A DNA stretch of 64,000 nt from the NCBI GenBank assembly GCA_020072565.1, contig JAIQGI010000022.1:1-64000 (forward strand), read 5' to 3'. Positions 40,950 to 55,737 of the stretch are shown here, in pieces. How positions within the stretch are numbered: position 1 is the stretch's first letter; each line of letters starts with the position of its first letter. The position numbers and the translations under genes are program-made. Origin of the DNA: Terriglobia bacterium (GTDB lineage Bacteria > Acidobacteriota > UBA6911). The notes under the pieces were generated by a model, which had not been told where the DNA came from, did no database searches, and saw nothing but the letters and a program-made list of their open reading frames with translations.

Positions 40950-41606
40950 CTAGTCGTGCAGGACTACGCTGAGGAGGCCGCTATGGACTGCCAATCCAGT
41001 GGTATCATAGTCAATAAAGCCGAGCTTCCGGAACTTGTTCATGAAATGACTGACCCGCGCCCGGGTTGTGCCCACCATTTGCGCCAGCGATTCCTGATCT
41101 ACCTTGGGCAGCACGATTTCGGTTCGGCTTTCCTTGCCAAAATGAGCCAGCAGCAGGAGAATCCGAGCCAGACGCTTTTCGCTTGAGTTGAATAGCTGGT
41201 CGACGAGATCCGCCTCGTATCGGATGTTGCGGGAAAGCAGATGCTTGACGAATAGTTCCGCGACGTCGTGCTTTTCGTGAAGCATTCGCCCCATTAGCAA
41301 TTTCTCGATCTTGTCCAGCGTGCAATCCGACAATGCGACAGCCGTTGCCATACGCAACGGTTGGCCGGCAAGGCAGCCCTCGCCGAAGAACTCACCGCCG
41401 TCAAGAATGGCGACGATCGCCTCCTTGCCCTGTTGGGATATGACCGAGATCTTTACCTTGCCTTGCCGGATGTAGAACAAGGCATCCGCAGGTTGCCCTT
41501 GCTGAAAAATGTTGTGGCCCATTCCGCATTCCAGAACGGTCTTCCCACGGAAGATACCGGTGAAAAGGGCTTCCCAATCGACCGACTGGTTTTTCTTAAG
41601 AGCCAT
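40950..41606 (-). CDS. Crp/Fnr family transcription regulator (paralogue 1)
   Basis: ATG 41606 has AGAGG upstream; the product has 218 residues. The cyclic-nucleotide-binding-like domain is clear ('FQQGQPADALFYIRQGKVKI', 'GEFFGEGCLAGQPLRMATAV'). The C-terminal winged helix has the recognition helix in 'MVGTTRARVSHFMNKFRKLG'. No N-terminal Cys cluster for an Fe-S centre is present, and the cAMP-specific residues are not evident, so the effector is unknown. It is very similar to the gene at 50231, including the C-terminal 'LLSVVLHD'. Confidence 0.9.
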   Translation of the reverse strand: MALKKNQSVDWEALFTGIFRGKTVLECGMGHNIFQQGQPADALFYIRQGKVKISVISQQGKEAIVAILDGGEFFGEGCLAGQPLRMATAVALSDCTLDKIEKLLMGRMLHEKHDVAELFVKHLLSRNIRYEADLVDQLFNSSEKRLARILLLLAHFGKESRTEIVLPKVDQESLAQMVGTTRARVSHFMNKFRKLGFIDYDTTGLAVHSGLLSVVLHD

Positions 41607-41848
41607 AAGAACCTCTTTGATTGCCGATGGTGCGCCAAGCATAGGAGACAATTAACTTGGGGTGCTGTGTCCCGCACAACTGAGTTACGCTCGATTCTTC
41701 AGAGGCACAATTATTTTAGCCCGAACAGAGCTGGCAACCAAACAGATAAGATGCCCGGATCGACGGCGCACCGAAGTCGGGCGTGAGCTCGCGATAGATA
41801 TCGCCGGGATCGGCTCCATCTGCGCCGTGATCTCCGCCGCAGACCCTG

Positions 41849-44470: not shown

Positions 44471-47400
44471 TCATTGTGCGTGACCTGATTTCTGAAGCGT
44501 TTCTTCCGCGCGCCGGCGCGCGGAGAGATCGAAAGTTACGATGACTACCCTCCAACCCGGCAGCGCCAGGGGCACGGCGCTCACATCCGTCCAGACGACG
44601 CTGCCATCTTCCTTTACGACGCCTGTTTCGACGTGAGGCACCGGCCGCTGCTCCCGCTCCGCCCGCGCGCCGGCAAACTCTTCCGCCGGCATCGGCGTGC
44701 CATCCGGCCTTAGAAACCTATGCCGCGTGGCATCGCCCCCGAGCAGACCGGCGCGGGTCACATCCAACATCGTTTCCAACGCGGGATTGACATAGACGAT
44801 CTTGCCTTTGGCGTCGAGCACTGAGACTCCCACCGGCAATATCTGGAACAGGGCACTGAGCTTCTCCTGGCTCTCGCGCAGCGCCGTCTGCAGCTCTTTC
44901 TGTTCCGTGATCTCGACAAAAGTCAGCACCGCGCCCTCGATGACGTTATCCAGCGTGCGATAAGGCTGGATGCGCATCTGGTACCACTGTCCCTCCTGGG
45001 TGCGCACTTCAGCTTCCATGGGGGTCAGCGTGTCCAGCACCTTCCGCGCGTCCGGCACCAGCCGGTCATAGCCCTTGAGCCGGGAGACGATGTCGCTCAC
45101 TGGCCTCCCGATATCAGTCTGGATTAGGTTTATGATGCGCGTGGTCGCCGGCGTAAATCGTCGAATCCGCAGTTGGTGGTCCAGAAAGAGGGTGCCGATG
45201 TTCGTGCCGGCCATCAGGTTGTTCATATCGTCGTTCGCCCGCGAGAGCTCTTCGATCCTTTGTTGCAGTTCCGTGTTGACCGTCACGAGTTCCTCGTTGA
45301 CCGATTGCAGTTCTTCTTTTGAAGTCTCCAACTCTTCGTTCGTGGATTGCAGTTCTTCGTTCGAAGACTGCAATTCTTCGTTGGTGGATTTGAGTTCTTC
45401 GTTGGTGGTTTCGAGTTCCTCGATGGTGGTGCGCAGGCACTCGCCCTTGGTGCGCAGTTCCCGCTCCAGCGTGAGGACGCGCTGCTCCTGGTCGCTGATG
45501 GGCGCGGCTGCCCCTGCCACCGCCGGGCGATCGGGGGTCACGTCCTCGAAGATGACCATGAGCAGGCCCCGCGCCGCCTCCGGCTTCACCACGGGCTGGA
45601 CGATGAGATTCACAACCGAGGTGTCTCCGTTGGACTTTACCTGCAAGCCGTCGTAGCGGACGGGCGCCTGCAGGGTGAGGGCCTTGCGCGCCGCCGCAGT
45701 CAATTCCATCCGCAGCCCCTGGCGCGCCATGTGCAGCAGATTCAAACTGGCATCCCCCGCGGCCGGCTCCAGGTATTTGCCGGTGTGGCCGTGGATGTAA
45801 AGCACGTCGAACTCGGCGTTGATGAGCACGCTCGCCGGGACATACTCTTCCAGCAAAACCTGTTCCGCCAGATCACGAGCGCCGCCGGGATGCGACGGCG
45901 CGCCCGCAGAACGTGCCCGTCTGACGGCGTCCTCCGCCGCTAGAGGCGGCGTATAGGGGGCAAGGGCGGCACGAGGCGTTACCACACCTTTGCGTTGATA
46001 AATCTTCCACTTTTTGTCCACGCCGCCAAACAAATCCATAAACTCGCCGATGGTCTCCGAGTTGCCCAGGAAGAGATATCCGTCCTGATTCAACGCATAG
46101 TGGAACAGGCGCAGGATCTTTTTCTGCGCCTCGCCTCCAAGATAGATCAGGAGGTTGCGGCAACTGATCAGATCGAGTCTGGAAAAGGGGGGGTCCTTGA
46201 GCGCGTCTTGCTCGGCAAAGACCACCAGATCGCGGATGCTCTTGCTGATGTGATAGGAATTACCGCCCTGATCCTGGGCAAAGAACCTGGCCAGCCGTTT
46301 AGGCGAGACGTCGGCGGCAATGCTGTTGGGGTACACGCCGGCGCGGGCTTTTTCAATGGCCTCGGCGTCGATGTCGGTCGCAAAGACCTGCACCTGGAAA
46401 CTTTGTTTCAGCTCGTCCAGATATTCCCGGATCAGGATAGCGAGAGAGTACGCTTCTTCGCCGGAGGAACAGCCGGGTACCCAGATGCGCACACTCCCGC
46501 CCGGTATCCCGGCAAAGAGGCGGCGGATGACGTGTTCCTGGAGCGACTCGAAGGCTGGCGGGTCCCGGAAAAAATTGGTGACGCCGATCAGCAGTTCGCG
46601 AAAGAGCGTTTCCACTTCCAGCGGAGTTTGTCGCAGATAACGGACGTAGTCTTCGAGGCGGTCAATCTGGGCGAGGGCCAGGCGCCGCTCGATGCGGCGG
46701 TGGATGGTGTTCCGCTTGTACAGCGAAAAGTCGTGTCCGGTCTGGGCGCGCAGCAGAATGAACACCTTCTGCAGGATGTCGTCGTCGTTGGGGGTGGGAA
46801 GGATCATGGGTTTCGGCCGGTAGCCAAAGGCGTGCTGCACGTAGACGATCAGTTGCTTCGGCATACCGTCCGGAGGCAGGACAAAGTCCACCAGGCCGGT
46901 GGCAATGGCGCTGCGGGGCATCCCATCGTAGGCCGCCGACTCTGGGGCCTGGACCATCGCCATGCCCCCTTCGCCCTTGATCGCTTTGAGCCCCAGCGTG
47001 CCGTCGGTGCCGGTGCCGGAGAGCACGATGCAGATCGCCCGCTCATGCTGGTCTTGGGCCAACGAGCGAAAGAAATAATCAATCGGCAGGCGCAAGCCGC
47101 GCGGCGCACTCGGCTCCAGCAAATGCAGCTTACCGTTGATGAAAGCCATGTCCCGGTTGGGCGGAATGACGTAAGTGCAGTTGGGCTGCACCTCCATCCC
47201 GTCCTCAACCTTGTAGACTTGCATCTTGGTATACCGCTTGACCAGGTCCATCAGGATGCTCTTGTGGTTGGGATCGAGATGTTGCACCACGACGAATGCC
47301 ATCCCGATTTCCTTGTCCGTGGGCATCGCAGCAAAGAACGCTTCGATAGCGGCCAGTCCACCGGCAGACGCGCCTAGGCCGACGATGGGAAAGCTCGCCT

Positions 47401-47530
47401 CCGGGCAGATGCTCGAATCTGCCCCCTCGGCAGGTTCCGTTTCTACCGGCGCCTCATTCGGCGTGACCGGTCGCTCCATTTCGGGCGACGGGATTTCTTG
47501 CTTCACACTCGGTTTCTTCTTTTTGGTCAT
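44471..47530 (-). CDS. CheB-CheR-coiled-coil-PAS-PAS sensor protein
   Basis: This is a 1019-residue multidomain protein. A Pro/Glu-rich N-terminus leads to a CheB methylesterase domain (~45-230) with Ser in 'GLGASAGG', His in 'VVQHLDPNHKS' and Asp in 'LSGTGTDGTLG'. CheR methyltransferase (~260-510) has 'RIWVPGCSSGEEAYSLAIL'. Next are a PAS-like part, a long coiled-coil of NEELQS-type heptads (~690-800) and two PAS domains with the linker 'LFLDHQLRIRRFTPATTRII'. Unlike its relative at 51751 it ends without a kinase domain; a PAS histidine kinase follows 33 nt downstream. These hybrids are thought to tune signalling by methylation rather than classical chemotaxis. No flagellar or chemotaxis genes are nearby. 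Confidence 0.9.
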   Translation of the reverse strand: MTKKKKPSVKQEIPSPEMERPVTPNEAPVETEPAEGADSSICPEASFPIVGLGASAGGLAAIEAFFAAMPTDKEIGMAFVVVQHLDPNHKSILMDLVKRYTKMQVYKVEDGMEVQPNCTYVIPPNRDMAFINGKLHLLEPSAPRGLRLPIDYFFRSLAQDQHERAICIVLSGTGTDGTLGLKAIKGEGGMAMVQAPESAAYDGMPRSAIATGLVDFVLPPDGMPKQLIVYVQHAFGYRPKPMILPTPNDDDILQKVFILLRAQTGHDFSLYKRNTIHRRIERRLALAQIDRLEDYVRYLRQTPLEVETLFRELLIGVTNFFRDPPAFESLQEHVIRRLFAGIPGGSVRIWVPGCSSGEEAYSLAILIREYLDELKQSFQVQVFATDIDAEAIEKARAGVYPNSIAADVSPKRLARFFAQDQGGNSYHISKSIRDLVVFAEQDALKDPPFSRLDLISCRNLLIYLGGEAQKKILRLFHYALNQDGYLFLGNSETIGEFMDLFGGVDKKWKIYQRKGVVTPRAALAPYTPPLAAEDAVRRARSAGAPSHPGGARDLAEQVLLEEYVPASVLINAEFDVLYIHGHTGKYLEPAAGDASLNLLHMARQGLRMELTAAARKALTLQAPVRYDGLQVKSNGDTSVVNLIVQPVVKPEAARGLLMVIFEDVTPDRPAVAGAAAPISDQEQRVLTLERELRTKGECLRTTIEELETTNEELKSTNEELQSSNEELQSTNEELETSKEELQSVNEELVTVNTELQQRIEELSRANDDMNNLMAGTNIGTLFLDHQLRIRRFTPATTRIINLIQTDIGRPVSDIVSRLKGYDRLVPDARKVLDTLTPMEAEVRTQEGQWYQMRIQPYRTLDNVIEGAVLTFVEITEQKELQTALRESQEKLSALFQILPVGVSVLDAKGKIVYVNPALETMLDVTRAGLLGGDATRHRFLRPDGTPMPAEEFAGARAEREQRPVPHVETGVVKEDGSVVWTDVSAVPLALPGWRVVIVTFDLSARRRAEETLQKSGHAQ

Positions 47531-48033: not shown

Positions 48034-48507
48034 TTAGGCTGAGTTTCTTGACCCTACAGGATGAGTTCTGGAGGGCTGCTTTTCGAGGGGATTTACATGT
48101 TTGACGCCGTGGAAGCGCTTGAAATCATGATCACTGGAATATATTTCGCAATCGAGTTCGAGGGCAAGGGCGGCAAGATGTGCATCGGAGGTCAGATTTC
48201 CGGCCGTGCCGGAGGAGCGGAGCAGATTGCGCAAAATGAGCCAGTGTTTTTCGCCGGGCACGACGGTTTGGACGTAGGGCTGTGCCAGCCACGAGTCGAG
48301 GTACTCGAGGGCAGCCTCGGGAGAGAGGGGATGTCTCACGACAGCCGGGTGGGTTACGATTCGAAGGAATGCCAGGACCACACCCCATGTCAGGCCGACG
48401 TGATCACTGCTCGACAGGACCTTCTCGAGCCATCGCCGCGCGGCATCATGATGGGGCGATGCCGAATCGATCGCATAAATCAACAGGTTGGCGTCGATCA
48501 GAATCAT
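48034..48507 (-). CDS. vapC: VapC-family PIN-domain toxin
   Basis: This 157-residue PIN protein has the Asp set: 'MILIDANLLIYAID', Glu/Asp region 'SPEAALEYLDSWL', 'TSDAHLAALAL' and 'IYSSDHDFKRF'. It is predicted to be a toxin RNase. Its start overlaps the antitoxin stop by 4 nt (ATGA). A C-terminal extension of about 15 residues ('EKQPSRTHPVGSRNSA') goes beyond the usual end. Confidence 0.88.
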   Translation of the reverse strand: MILIDANLLIYAIDSASPHHDAARRWLEKVLSSSDHVGLTWGVVLAFLRIVTHPAVVRHPLSPEAALEYLDSWLAQPYVQTVVPGEKHWLILRNLLRSSGTAGNLTSDAHLAALALELDCEIYSSDHDFKRFHGVKHVNPLEKQPSRTHPVGSRNSA

Positions 48508-48773
48508 TTTCTAAGCCGAAGCTTGCCGGCAATTTCCATGGTTTCGATTTCATCGGCCAGCCGCAACGCCTTGTCGATGTTGATACCCGGGAGCACTCCG
48601 CCCAGGGACGCGGGCTTGATCTTGTAGGGTCGGCTTTTCGGCAAAGCGTGCTCCGCTTGAATCCCGGCTTGCAAGGCGCAGTTGACAACCTCTTTGAATG
48701 ATTTGCCGGACTGGTATGCCTTTTTACGAAGCGCATGCGCCAGCCGGTCATCGATGGTCAGTGTGGTTCGCAT
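48504..48773 (-). CDS. vapB: VapB-like antitoxin
   Basis: ATG 48773 gives an 89-residue protein opening 'MRTTLTIDDRLAHALRKKA', a ribbon-helix-helix start, followed by 'SFKEVVNCALQAG' and a Pro-rich toxin-binding tail. A TATGAT sequence 8 nt before the start may be the -10, which would give a very short leader. It forms a coupled operon with the PIN toxin. Confidence 0.82.
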   Translation of the reverse strand: MRTTLTIDDRLAHALRKKAYQSGKSFKEVVNCALQAGIQAEHALPKSRPYKIKPASLGGVLPGINIDKALRLADEIETMEIAGKLRLRK

Positions 48774-48903
48774 GCTTACATCATAGCACACAAATGCCAG
48801 ACATCAAAGCATCATCGAAGTTCGCAAGTTCATTACAACACGTCTGTCTCATAGAACGAGAAAACCGGAATAGGACGGCGCACCCATACGCGGGCATGCC
48901 GGC

Positions 48904-49164
48904 TCACTCGAGGGACAGGCCGAAAGACTCGGGGTGCTCGAGAACCGCCTTAATCGCGGCGGCGAAGGTGTCGAAATCGCCGAGATCGTTCTTAAAGACC
49001 CCTTCCAGCGCCCTGCGCAGATAGAATTGCGCGCGCACAAAGTTTTCTTCCTGCGCAAACTCCACGTCCGGCAACTCCCCCAGTTTTTGCAGCATCAGCC
49101 TATCTCTGGCTATGCCGTCGAGCCGGGGAATGACCGACTGACTCTTGATCGATGGTGGCGCCAT
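48904..49164 (-). CDS. HepT-like HEPN toxin with an internal deletion removing the catalytic motif
   Basis: The 86-residue product matches the two ends of HepT (DUF86) proteins: 'ARDRLMLQKLGELPDV' plus 'EENFVRAQFYLRRALEG', then directly 'KNDLGDFDTFAAAIKAVLEH'. In full-length family members of about 135-145 residues, some 50 residues lie between these parts, including the R-x4-6-H RNase centre ('YRNRLVH'-like). Here that part is missing without breaking the frame. The protein should be non-toxic but may still bind its partner. The MntA gene lies 3 nt upstream. Confidence 0.75.
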   Translation of the reverse strand: MAPPSIKSQSVIPRLDGIARDRLMLQKLGELPDVEFAQEENFVRAQFYLRRALEGVFKNDLGDFDTFAAAIKAVLEHPESFGLSLE

Positions 49165-49167
49165 ACC

Positions 49168-49575
49168 TCAGATCCTTTGCAGCACCGCCTCGTTGAAATT
49201 ATCGAGATGCGGTTTGAAATCCGCGTACAGGATCATGACTCGCTCTTCGAATTCGTATCGGGCGTCCTCAGAAGAGGCAAAGAGGAGCCGGCCATGCCTG
49301 ATGGCGTCCGAACAGATTTCCAGGCCGGCCAGTTGCAGGAAGACGATATCCATGATCGTGTCCGGGAAGGCATCGGTCAGGAGGTCGTACAGTTGGTTGT
49401 AGGCCACGAACGAATCAGCACTGACTTTCCGCAGGTCTCGGAATACGATCCCGAAATCGAGGTCGCTCAGCGGGTGCGCGCAGCCCTCGGCCACGGAGCC
49501 AAAGACGTACACAAGTTCCACTCCCGCCGACTTGAGCCTGTCTTCTGTTTGATGCGCGATCTCCAGATTTATCAT
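49168..49575 (-). CDS. MntA-like nucleotidyltransferase antitoxin
   Basis: This 135-residue minimal nucleotidyltransferase has the signature 'VYVFGSVAEGCAHPLSDLDF' (GS-x-DxD). The third acidic residue is in 'IMDIVFLQ'. MntA proteins adenylylate HepT on a Tyr near its RNase motif to silence it. Here the target toxin has lost that region, so the antitoxin is a leftover or has another job. ATG 49575 is chosen over an upstream start because family members begin at this helix. Confidence 0.8.
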   Translation of the reverse strand: MINLEIAHQTEDRLKSAGVELVYVFGSVAEGCAHPLSDLDFGIVFRDLRKVSADSFVAYNQLYDLLTDAFPDTIMDIVFLQLAGLEICSDAIRHGRLLFASSEDARYEFEERVMILYADFKPHLDNFNEAVLQRI

Positions 49576-50095
49576 TTGATTGGAACGTACACACAAGGAG
49601 TCTAAACGTCAAGGAGCATCGTCTGCGTCCGGCCGGCGACGCAGGCGCGGTGTAGCTGAAAAGAAGCGCAAGCGCGTCGATGAGCGCCTTCGGTTTGGTG
49701 AGATCCGCGTCGATGGCGAGCGCGTCGTTCTGATACAGGAGCGCGCGGCGCGGCGTCTGGAAGAGGATGTTGTCGCGGGGGTAACCGGCCTCGAACTTGC
49801 GGCGGACCTCGCGACGCAGGTCATCGTGGATGTCCTTGGCTTCCCAAAAGCCGTGGGTCAGGCGGAAATCGTCGACCAGGGCGCCGTCGACGCGCAGGGG
49901 CATCCGGCGTTGGCGGCGGATTTCCCATTCCGGCACCAGCGTCCAGTCATGCTGCCGGGCGCAGTGAGAGAGCAGGCTCTGAAATGCGGACCGGACCGCC
50001 GATTCGTGCCGGACACCCAGTTCCTCGAACTGGCGCAGCGCCGCGTGGTAGTTCTGAACCGGCTTGTGCGCCGGCTTGAGTTCCAGCTTCCGCAT
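49415..50095 (-). pseudogene. type ISP restriction-modification enzyme, N-terminal nuclease fragment
   Basis: From ATG 50095 the frame encodes 'MRKLELKPAHKPVQNYHAAL', 'ESAVRSAFQSLLSHCARQHD' and a PD-(D/E)xK-like site ('VDGALVDDFRLTHGFWEAKD'). This is the N-terminal nuclease region I know from type ISP (single-polypeptide) enzymes. Similarity ends near 49645 ('LIDALALLFSYTAP'). The helicase, methyltransferase and target-recognition parts, usually well over 1000 residues, are absent. The remaining frame runs on meaninglessly over the MntA gene. This is a remnant of a lost defence system. Confidence 0.65.
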
Positions 50096-50230
50096 CAGCG
50101 CTTCTTTCCATGCGAGTGTGACGTGGTCGAGGTTAGCGCAGGGAGGCAAGCAATGGCAAGCGATTCAGCGTGTCAGGATCGGGCGAAGACGGCGTCGGCC
50201 GGCCTGGAAAATAGCCTCCTGGCATCGAAT

Positions 50231-50890
50231 CTAGTCGTGCAGGACTACGCTCAGGAGGCTGTTGTTGACCGTCAACCCGCCGCTGTCGGCGTAATCGATA
50301 AAGCCATGCTGCCTGAACTTATTCATGAAATGACTGACTCGCGACCGGGTAGTGCCTACCATTTGTGCCAGATCATCCTGACTGACTCTGGGAACCACAG
50401 GTTCGGATCGGCTTTCCTTGCCGAAATGAGAAAGCAGCAGGAGAATCCGAGCCAGACGCCTTTCACTCGAGTTGAAAAGCTGATCGACAAGATCCGCTTC
50501 ATATCGGATGTTGCGGAAAAGCAGATGGGAGACGAAAACTTCCGAGATGGCATGCTGATCGTGGAGCAGGCTCGCCAGCTTCTGCCTCTCGATCCGGATA
50601 ATCGTGCAATCTGTCGTCGCGCTGGCTGCCGCCATGCGCAACGGCTGACCTGCAAGGCATCCCTCGCCAAAAAACTCACCGGCGTTCAGAATGGCAACAA
50701 TCGCTTCCTTGCCCTGTTTGGAGGTGACTGCGAGCTTCACCGCGCCTCGTCGGAGGAAAAACACGGAATCGGCGGGGTCTCCTTGCCGGAAGATGTTGCG
50801 GTTTGCGCTGTATTCTTTAACGGTTTTCCCTTGGGAGATTCCAGAGAGGATGGTCTCCCAATCGACAGGCTGACTTTTGTTATCTGCCAT
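50231..50890 (-). CDS. Crp/Fnr family transcription regulator (paralogue 2)
   Basis: This 219-residue protein has the cyclic-nucleotide-like sensor ('FRQGDPADSVFFLRRGAVKL', 'GEFFGEGCLAGQPLRMAAAS') and the winged helix ('MVGTTRSRVSHFMNKFRQHG'). It is closely related to the gene at 40950, with long identical stretches such as 'YEADLVDQLFNSSE' and 'LLSVVLHD', and even the last codons agree at the DNA level. No Fe-S Cys motif is seen. The two copies bracket the CheB-CheR/kinase genes, which suggests a segmental duplication. Confidence 0.9.
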   Translation of the reverse strand: MADNKSQPVDWETILSGISQGKTVKEYSANRNIFRQGDPADSVFFLRRGAVKLAVTSKQGKEAIVAILNAGEFFGEGCLAGQPLRMAAASATTDCTIIRIERQKLASLLHDQHAISEVFVSHLLFRNIRYEADLVDQLFNSSERRLARILLLLSHFGKESRSEPVVPRVSQDDLAQMVGTTRSRVSHFMNKFRQHGFIDYADSGGLTVNNSLLSVVLHD

Positions 50891-51750: not shown

Positions 51751-54700
51751 TCAATTCAGCGGTATCCGAATCATGATGGCAGCGCCGCGGCCGGGTAGCG
51801 TCACCAGCGAGAACTCTCCCCGGACCAGCCGCACGCGTTCCTGCATGCCGATCAGTCCCAGCCCGCCTTTATGCTGCACTGAGTGGATATCAAACCCAAC
51901 GCCGTGATCCCGAATGGAAAGGGACAGCCGTTTCGAACCTCCGGTAAGTCTGATTTTCACCGATGTCTTGCCCGCGTGCTTGGCGACGTTGCGCAGAGCC
52001 TCCTGAACGATCCGATAGAGAGAGCTTGCAGCCTCCGGTGGAATTCGCGCCGGCACTCTGCGCGCCGTGAACTGGACCGGGAGGCCCTCGCGCTCGGAAA
52101 ACTCCCGGCAGTAAGTACGTATCGCGACGGCGAGGCCGAGGTGATCGAGGGTCGAAGGATGAAGCTGGTAGGCGATCCTGCGGAGGTCATTGGAGAGCGT
52201 GCCAATTCCATCGCGGATCGCCAGCAGCCGTCTCTTCCCGTCCATCAGATCGGGAGGAAGCTGCTGGTCGAGCGTCTCCACATCAAACTGCAGCTTGGCC
52301 ACCTTTTGGCTCAAGTCGTCATGCAGCTCCCTGGATACGCGGCGGCGCTCTTCCTCCTGGGTGTTGAGCAGGCCTGCTGTTAACGCGCGCAATTCCTCGC
52401 GGGTGCGCAGCAAGGCTGCTTCACTGTCGTGCAAGGCAGTTTCACCAACCCGCACACTGCGCTGCAGTCGTTGCCGTTCTTCGACCAGGACGTGTTCTGC
52501 TCGTTTCTGAGCGGTGATATCCTCCACTGCGACGAGGATCTGATTTTCGTCATCGGGATGGATCCTGCGGGCATGGATCGCTACTGTCCTCCTGCCTGAT
52601 ATAGGGTACTCCTGCTTAAACTCGAGAGGTTCAATCGATTCCCGGTTCGCGGAGAGCCGCGCTAAAGCAGTCTGCAGGCCGGGCAGGTTCCACTGTTGCC
52701 CGCGCACCTCATAGAAGACCTGATTCTCGACGTCGGCGGGCCGCAGACGGTACGACTGGAAGAAGGCGCGGTTTGCCATTCGAACCCGCAAGTCGCTCCG
52801 CAGCACCAGGAGAGGCGTTTGAACCGACTCGACGACCGACTCGGCGAACTTGCGCGCCGAGTCGGCTGCAATCTGCGCGCGCCGAGCCTGGTCGATGTCC
52901 ACCAGGACCAGCACCGCGCCCTCGACCCGGTTGTCTCCCGTCCGATACGGCCGAACGTGCAGAAGGTGCCAGCATCCCTGGCGATCCAGCAACTCCGTTT
53001 CTTCCGGGTTGAATGTCTCGAGAACCCTCCGTACCCTCGATTCCAGGTCGTCCATGCTGAGCCGCGTCTGAATGTCCAGGATCGGCCGGCCGATGTCGCC
53101 GGGTTGAAATCCGAAGAGGCGTTCGGCCGACGTCGTGAGCCGCCGGATACGGAGCTCGTTGTCGATCATCAGCATCGGCATCGATGCGCTTTTCAGCAGA
53201 TTCGCAAGATCGTCGCTGAGCTTGCCCAGTTCCTGAATGCGGTTCCGTAACTCCTCGTTGACCGTGTTCAGCTCTTCATTGCTCGACTGCAGCTCTTCCT
53301 TCGAAGTTTCCAGTTCTTCGTTGATGCTCTGCAGTTCCTCGTTACTCGACTGGATCTCTTCATTCGCGGAGGTGAGATCTTCGTTGGCCGCATCACGTTC
53401 GTTGATGATGGATTGGAGCCGCTGCTCGGTCAGGGTAAGCTCCTCCCGGAGCCGCTCCAGTCCGGCGGAGCCGGCTTTGGATTTGCGGCGTGACCTCGTG
53501 CTTCCCGATGGTTCGCGTGGCTGGCCGAGCCGCTCCTTTGCGCGGCTGAGGAACAGGACGAGAAAACATCGGCCATCACTCGTTGGGGCGGTAAGGCGAC
53601 GCACTTCCAGCCGGACGGCGCCGATCTCGCCATCCCCGCTCTTCTGTAGGACGGTCGATTGGGCCGGGCCCGCTTCGCTCTTTGCTTTCGCGAGGAGCTT
53701 TCGCAACTCGCCCCTAATACACTCCCGTGCCATTTTGAGGAGTGACAGCGTGGCCTGTCCCGGAGCGAGGCGCAAATACGGACTTGTGTCCCCGTGCGAC
53801 TGGAGGATTTCGAAGCTTTCGTTCACGATCACCCAGGCCGGCCCATACTCGGACAGGACGATGCGCTCGGCCTCTTTGTCAAGCTCTGCCTCGAATGACC
53901 TCTCCTTGCCGATCGAGGGTGCGTGGGGGGGAAGACTTGGTGGCTGCTCGCTGACGAATCCACGGCCGATGAGTTCCGCGTGGACTCGAGCGGTTTTTCT
54001 GGTGAAAAACTTGTGACGCTTGTCGACGAGTGAAAACAGGCCCGGGACGTTGCTCAGGCTCTCCGCAAGGCCCAGCATCAGGTAGCCGTTCGGTTGCAGC
54101 GCATAGTGAAATGTAGCGGCCACCTGGCGCTGCAGCGCAGATTCGAGGTAAATCAGAAGGTTCCGGCAGCTGATCAGGTCGAGACGCGAGAAGGGCGGGT
54201 CCAGGAGCAGGTTCTGGCGCGCGAACACGCACATTTCACGAACCGACTTAAGGACCTGGAAGCCGTTCTCCACGCGCGCTAAAAAGCGTGCCCGCCGTTC
54301 CGGCGAGACGTTGGCGACCTGGTTCTCCGCGTACGTGGCAGTACGAGCCATCACAATCGCCTGTTCGCTGAGGTCGGTGCCGAAGATATGGATCGGGACC
54401 GGCGCGGGACACTTCTCGTTCGCCTCGATCAGGCACATGGCGATCGAGTAGACCTCCTCTCCTGTGGAACAGCCGGGCACCCACACGCGCAGCGGCAAGT
54501 CGCTGGACCGTTCCTTCAACAGTCGCGGCAAGATATCTTTTTCGAGGGCCAGAAAAACCTCGGGATCACGGAAAAAGCTGGTGACATTGATCAGCAGGTC
54601 CTCACACAACGCCAACAGCTCCGTAGGATTGGATTCCAGATCAGAAATGTATGCCTCCAGACCCTCATGGCGCCGCTGGATGATCCGGCGAGTGATGCGC

Positions 54701-55563
54701 CGCCGGATCGTCGCACGCCGGTATCCGCGAAAGTCCACCCTGGTGGCCGCTTGTATGAGCGCGAAGATCCGGTTCAGTTGAAACTCGTCCCCGGCGTTTT
54801 CCTGGGGAACAGCCACCGGCTCGCGTCCGACCAGGGAAAGGTGCCGTACAATCCTTGCCAACTCGGCCGCGATCTCTTCTGGGGATAAAATCAGGTCGAC
54901 GGTTCCGGCCGCGATTGCGGTTCGCGGCATGTCGGGATGTTTGGCCGAACTCTCGCTTTGAACGATGGCAATGCCGCCATCGGCCCGAATCGCCTGCAGG
55001 CCCAAAGCCCCATCGGAATCCGCGCCGGACAGGATCACCCCGATCGCAATTGTTTTCTGGTCCACCGCCAGGGAGCGGAAGAAGTAATCGATCGGCCTGG
55101 GTGCGCCACGCTCCTCCGGGCGAGGTTCGAGTTCCAGGACGTCGCCCGTAATGCGCATCAGAGTATTGGGCGGGATGACATAGACATGGTTGGGCTGAAC
55201 CGGCGTGCGGGGTTGAACCTCCATGACCGGCATCGCGGTCGTTCGCGACAACAACGAGGCCAGCATGCTGGGATGCTGAGGAGCAAGATGCTGGATAAAG
55301 ACGAAAGCCATTCCGGTATCGGCGGGAAGGTGTTGCAGGAGCTGCGTGAATGCCTCCAATCCTCCGGCGGAAGCGCCGACGCCGACGACAGGGAGAGGCG
55401 CCACTTGTAGCGGATCCTCTTCATCGGAATCCTGTATCAAGGGAATGCGGTCATCCTCCGAGCCCGTTGCCGGCTCATGCTCCCGATCCCGCGCATCCGT
55501 CGTCGCCCTGGACAGGTGTTCCGCGTCGCGGACGCGCCGCGACGTGCGTTTGCTCTTTGCCAT
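51751..55563 (-). CDS. CheB-CheR-coiled-coil-PAS-PAS-HisKA_3 hybrid histidine kinase
   Basis: This 1270-residue protein has CheB with Ser in 'GVGASAGG', His in 'FIQHLAPQH' and Asp in 'LSGADSDGALG'. CheR has 'VWVPGCSTGEEVYSIAM'. A PAS-like segment, NEEL-repeat coiled-coil ('NEEIQSSNEELQSINEELET'), two PAS domains and a second coiled-coil follow. The kinase has phospho-His in 'RELHDDLSQKVAKLQF', N box 'IVQEALRNVAKHAG' and G box 'IRDHGVGFDIH'. It is the intact version of the architecture that is truncated at 37853 and split at 44471/43133. ATG 55563 is the likely start; an in-frame GTG 55581 is possible. It operates with the NarL-type regulator downstream. Confidence 0.92.
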   Translation of the reverse strand: MAKSKRTSRRVRDAEHLSRATTDARDREHEPATGSEDDRIPLIQDSDEEDPLQVAPLPVVGVGASAGGLEAFTQLLQHLPADTGMAFVFIQHLAPQHPSMLASLLSRTTAMPVMEVQPRTPVQPNHVYVIPPNTLMRITGDVLELEPRPEERGAPRPIDYFFRSLAVDQKTIAIGVILSGADSDGALGLQAIRADGGIAIVQSESSAKHPDMPRTAIAAGTVDLILSPEEIAAELARIVRHLSLVGREPVAVPQENAGDEFQLNRIFALIQAATRVDFRGYRRATIRRRITRRIIQRRHEGLEAYISDLESNPTELLALCEDLLINVTSFFRDPEVFLALEKDILPRLLKERSSDLPLRVWVPGCSTGEEVYSIAMCLIEANEKCPAPVPIHIFGTDLSEQAIVMARTATYAENQVANVSPERRARFLARVENGFQVLKSVREMCVFARQNLLLDPPFSRLDLISCRNLLIYLESALQRQVAATFHYALQPNGYLMLGLAESLSNVPGLFSLVDKRHKFFTRKTARVHAELIGRGFVSEQPPSLPPHAPSIGKERSFEAELDKEAERIVLSEYGPAWVIVNESFEILQSHGDTSPYLRLAPGQATLSLLKMARECIRGELRKLLAKAKSEAGPAQSTVLQKSGDGEIGAVRLEVRRLTAPTSDGRCFLVLFLSRAKERLGQPREPSGSTRSRRKSKAGSAGLERLREELTLTEQRLQSIINERDAANEDLTSANEEIQSSNEELQSINEELETSKEELQSSNEELNTVNEELRNRIQELGKLSDDLANLLKSASMPMLMIDNELRIRRLTTSAERLFGFQPGDIGRPILDIQTRLSMDDLESRVRRVLETFNPEETELLDRQGCWHLLHVRPYRTGDNRVEGAVLVLVDIDQARRAQIAADSARKFAESVVESVQTPLLVLRSDLRVRMANRAFFQSYRLRPADVENQVFYEVRGQQWNLPGLQTALARLSANRESIEPLEFKQEYPISGRRTVAIHARRIHPDDENQILVAVEDITAQKRAEHVLVEERQRLQRSVRVGETALHDSEAALLRTREELRALTAGLLNTQEEERRRVSRELHDDLSQKVAKLQFDVETLDQQLPPDLMDGKRRLLAIRDGIGTLSNDLRRIAYQLHPSTLDHLGLAVAIRTYCREFSEREGLPVQFTARRVPARIPPEAASSLYRIVQEALRNVAKHAGKTSVKIRLTGGSKRLSLSIRDHGVGFDIHSVQHKGGLGLIGMQERVRLVRGEFSLVTLPGRGAAIMIRIPLN

Positions 55564-55737
55564 CCGTGCCGTGCTCCTCACGAGCGTGCAGGCGTTTTCT
55601 GCAGTGTGCCAGAACCGCCCATATTATCCATCGCGTCCAGGTGCCGAGTCAATCGAAGCGCGCGTATGTGGGCAGGAAATACCCGCAGCCATCGCCCGTT
55701 GCTTCATCCAAATTGCTCTCTTGGCCGGGAAATCCTA

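Follow-up and report, generated by a model that had tools for sequence, protein, structure and literature searches.

Probable toxin-first decay of a type VII HepT/MntA toxin-antitoxin pair in an Acidobacteriota genome

The closest described system is the type VII HepT/MntA pair SO_3166/SO_3165 of Shewanella oneidensis (PDB 5yep, 6m6u, 7bxo; PMC7641770), in which the antitoxin gene precedes the toxin gene. The Shewanella HepT carries an RX4HXY motif (R97, H102 and Y104), the tyrosine of which takes three AMPs, and helix 4 of MntA inserts into the cleft formed around RX4H (PMC7641770). In Legionella, another catalytic site is reported on helix 2 (Q44, E47), within the dimer, and in a studied system other than that of Shewanella, helix 4 of the MNT protein docks also on HEPN helices 1 and 6 (PMC11586414). 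From most HEPN domains fused to MNT domains the catalytic residues are missing, and these domains are regarded as domesticated (PMC3710099).

The window analysed here, 64,000 nucleotides of a Terriglobia bacterium contig (JAIQGI010000022.1, positions 1 to 64,000), contains the same antitoxin-then-toxin order on the minus strand. The mntA gene occupies 49168-49575 (-), with an alternative TTG start at 49596, and encodes a minimal nucleotidyltransferase which is intact, as it had looked in the first-pass annotation. Its GSVAEGCAHPLSDLD stretch corresponds to GSX10DXD, as in the Shewanella antitoxin, and the third aspartate is present in MDIVFL. The protein scores 69 bits on the NCBIfam model NF047752, above the curated cut-off of 60, and matches chain A of PDB 5yep at E 4.8e-6. 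It is about 30% identical to the MntA of Candidatus Fischerbacteria bacterium RBG_13_37_8 (G077, L008/L056), a member of the same phylum whose pair serves as the reference below.

The ATG of the next open reading frame lies 3 nt past the mntA stop codon. This frame, 48904-49164 (-), encodes 86 amino acids, and its kinship with HepT is recognizable at both ends. Residues 1-57 align to residues 6-57 of the G077 HepT, and residues 58-86 align to residues 124-148; for each part, none of 3000 shuffles reaches the observed score. The G077 protein is the nearest full-length HepT found, with 42% identity over the aligned parts. A HepT profile built from 19 other HepTs, with the 86-residue frame left out, gives two collinear matches, one at profile positions 7-64 (E 0.003) and the other at 129-149 (E 0.1); some 64 positions between them are left unmatched. 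Both ends being homologous and collinear, the frame shares common descent with HepT, and the coordinates and preserved ends given in the first-pass annotation are borne out. The Pfam HepT model PF01934 does not match the remnant even at E 10, leaving it below the curated cut-off; the G077 HepT matches this model at E 1.4e-18 with 67 bits. The frame of the remnant is open and of coding type, with GC at codon positions 1, 2 and 3 of 0.64, 0.37 and 0.74, similar to the 0.63, 0.32 and 0.72 of mntA.

The segment between the two ends is missing in frame. Alignment with full HepTs, a check proposed in the first-pass annotation, places the loss at 65-66 residues (195-198 bp) against 12 relatives; the internal in-frame deletion postulated there is thereby confirmed, while its estimate of about 50 residues was too small. 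The junction falls at 48993/48994 (-), between codon 57 (TTT, Phe) and codon 58 (AAG, Lys), a position uncertain by a residue or two given the distance of the relatives. In the model of the G077 HepT, helices span residues 8-26, 39-65, 75-84, 90-109, 116-126 and 128-142. Mapped on this model and that of the remnant, the N-terminal part that survives (48994-49164 (-), residues 1-57) carries helix 1 with roughly two thirds of helix 2; the surviving C-terminal part (48904-48993 (-)) carries the last helix, the tail and the stop codon. Lost between them are the final stretch of helix 2, all of helices 3 and 4, the Y-loop bearing RX4HXY (RNRLIHFY in G077) and the larger part of helix 5. Both the RX4-6H catalytic motif and the tyrosine for AMPylation fall inside the deleted segment, as had been noticed at first reading.

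In the AlphaFold2 model, the remnant folds into three helices with moderate confidence (mean pLDDT 79, pTM 0.55), and on this prediction the product might be small but stable. The HEPN helical fold is not recovered: in a comparison with PDB folds, no hit to the remnant model falls below E 2.8. The model of the G077 HepT matches HEPN toxins in the PDB at E 2.3e-6.

The remnant and its antitoxin can thus be set against the described systems. The GSX10DXD motif of MntA and the recognizable N- and C-terminal parts of HepT follow the Shewanella pair. Unlike the Shewanella HepT, and unlike the complete G077 HepT with its RNRLIHFY, the remnant lacks the 65-66 residues that include RX4HXY; these residues being deleted, the protein can neither act as an RNase nor be AMPylated at that tyrosine. 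Judged from its sequence, the product cannot act as a HEPN RNase. With respect to the Legionella site, helix 2 is partly kept, but the helical bundle forming the dimer cleft is gone. The counterparts of HEPN helices 1 and 6 are retained as helix 1 and the C-terminal helix. As in the HEPN-MNT fusions, a HEPN protein without its catalytic motif stands beside an MNT protein; in the fusions, however, the four-helix domain is complete and only residues have been lost (PMC3710099), whereas the remnant has lost half of the domain.

A survey of HepT beside MntA in the phylum provides a base rate for such loci. Loci were collected from two phylum searches, the HepT profile was run over the six frames of each, and doubtful loci were read by eye. 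Besides the present one, 52 distinct MntA sites were obtained: HepT is intact at 41 and broken or missing at 9, and two were left unjudged (L028, at a contig end, and L063, with masked bases). HepT is therefore broken or absent at 9 of the 50 classifiable sites (18%, about one in six), a fraction that may include sequencing errors, the genomes being drafts. At the site of the closest MntA relative (L007, G131:C47), hepT is broken by a frameshift in the draft sequence. In-frame stops near the boundary of helices 2 and 3 interrupt it at L035 (G219:C18) and L082 (G292:C420), where MntA is intact; L079, a close relative of L082, has an intact HepT. Truncated forms occur at L010, L013, L014, L030 and L060, and HepT is absent from L086. 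Within this phylum, then, it is common for an intact antitoxin to stand beside a damaged toxin. At L028/L067 (G287:C29), one of the two unjudged sites, the start of HepT runs at the contig end into a later segment of HepT, the join lying around a repeated GAGTACCTGG-like stretch, and MntA is intact; this is probably a second internal HepT deletion, cut by the contig end.

The locus is probably a decayed type VII toxin-antitoxin pair that underwent ordinary toxin-first loss. As the alignment shows, hepT has lost 195-198 bp of internal sequence and with it the RNase centre, the AMPylated tyrosine and the cleft for MntA helix 4, functions assigned by homology. MntA is presumably still intact because a cell can lose the toxin first without harm but would be poisoned if the antitoxin went first. 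The antitoxin is now probably without its own substrate and likely to drift away later. The restriction gene upstream, also a truncated remnant, speaks for decay; against it, the open coding-type frame shows no further damage beyond the single deletion, so the deletion could be recent or the remnant could be kept, and the possible stability of the three-helix product also counts against decay. The escape from toxicity offered earlier as one meaning of the deletion agrees with the loss of the catalytic motif and the AMPylation tyrosine and with the frequency of broken HepT beside intact MntA. Toxin-first decay accounts for everything seen; retention of the remnant as a mini-HepT, or of MntA as a lone protective antitoxin, is unlikely.

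By analogy with the fusions, the remnant might be a disarmed mini-HepT retained as a partner of MntA, either as a decoy that occupies MntA or as a substrate-presenting or regulatory subunit. The open frame of coding-type composition, the retained helix 1 and C-terminal helix, at whose counterparts MNT helix 4 docks elsewhere, and the apparent domestication of non-catalytic HEPN-MNT fusions are all consistent with such a role. The cleft that takes MntA helix 4 in Shewanella is nevertheless gone, the model has lost its likeness to a HEPN fold, and one deletion in three is expected to preserve the frame, so that selection need not be invoked. A search for the same deleted form, as the first-pass annotation had advised, found no copy in 396 genomes of the phylum or in 72,556 plasmids, and a search of the family likewise returned none. 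Retention as a partner in this general sense is unlikely. A more specific form, in which an 86-residue non-catalytic three-helix mini-HepT uses helix 1 and the C-terminal helix to hold on to MntA and so directs or titrates it, is very unlikely; the anti-toxin decoy first proposed for this locus finds no support, the helix 4 cleft being deleted and a conserved second copy missing from the genomes and plasmids searched. Scans with MntA of viral sequences and of genome contigs gave no match, and the contig scan with HepT yielded G077 itself and no other.

The other possibility places the function in MntA alone, kept as a solitary antitoxin that protects from HepT toxins brought in by mobile DNA, with the hepT remnant as a passive companion. 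Anti-addiction by solitary antitoxins has been proposed in general, although a reviewer of PMC2701414 called the idea speculative. An intact MntA beside a dead hepT, both here and at the nine sites of the survey, speaks for such a role, but recent decay explains the survival of MntA equally well, and no incoming cognate HepT is known. This MntA is also absent from the same-genus genome, whose contig begins inside the neighbouring response regulator gene and leaves the HepT/MntA site uncovered. A protective solitary MntA is accordingly improbable.

It is highly improbable that the true gene is full length and lost its middle in assembly: the genome is a 7.46 Mb draft in 135 contigs, but 48800-49700 is free of direct repeats reaching 10 bases, such as could cause a collapse, the loss of 195-198 bp keeps the frame exactly, and the contig measures 89.7 kb with a flank 91% identical to the same-genus genome. 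Relocation of the deleted core is rejected, since the core is absent elsewhere in this genome, where PF01934 finds only an unrelated HepT on contig C128. That HepT belongs to a second MNT-HEPN pair of another subfamily (L001, G000:C128, 669-1284 (+)), with an intact RNRLVH motif and its own MntA-type neighbour.

Toxin-first decay of the pair makes this locus a clean example of a toxin-antitoxin system losing its toxin through one in-frame internal deletion, with the antitoxin untouched. The proportion of broken sites is of use whenever such a locus is judged functional, or a decoy, from sequence alone, and an annotation that relies on MntA alone would give too high a number of working HepT/MntA systems.

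Defence and toxin-antitoxin pieces, several of which are broken, make up a mosaic in the neighbourhood. Just upstream of mntA, 49641-50114 (-) encodes the cut-off N-terminal fragment of a type ISP/IIG restriction-modification enzyme, matching positions 6-148 of a 1024-position profile. The fragment is 83% identical over 161 residues to an ORF of at least 950 residues at G000:C43 in the same genome, and the DNA similarity to that copy stops at window position 49641, 66 bases before the mntA ATG. A scan for promoters and terminators gave no decisive signal. A similar short restriction-enzyme fragment is found in G012:C58 (L092). Directly downstream of the hepT remnant lies a VapB-like and VapC-like pair, 48034-48791 (-) (TIGR00028, 141 bits). 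Several Crp/Fnr-type regulator paralogues are encoded on this contig, at 40950-41651, at 50231-50890 and at G000:C22:70151-70806, near very large signalling proteins of the CheB/CheR-PAS type (44471-47530, 51751-55581).
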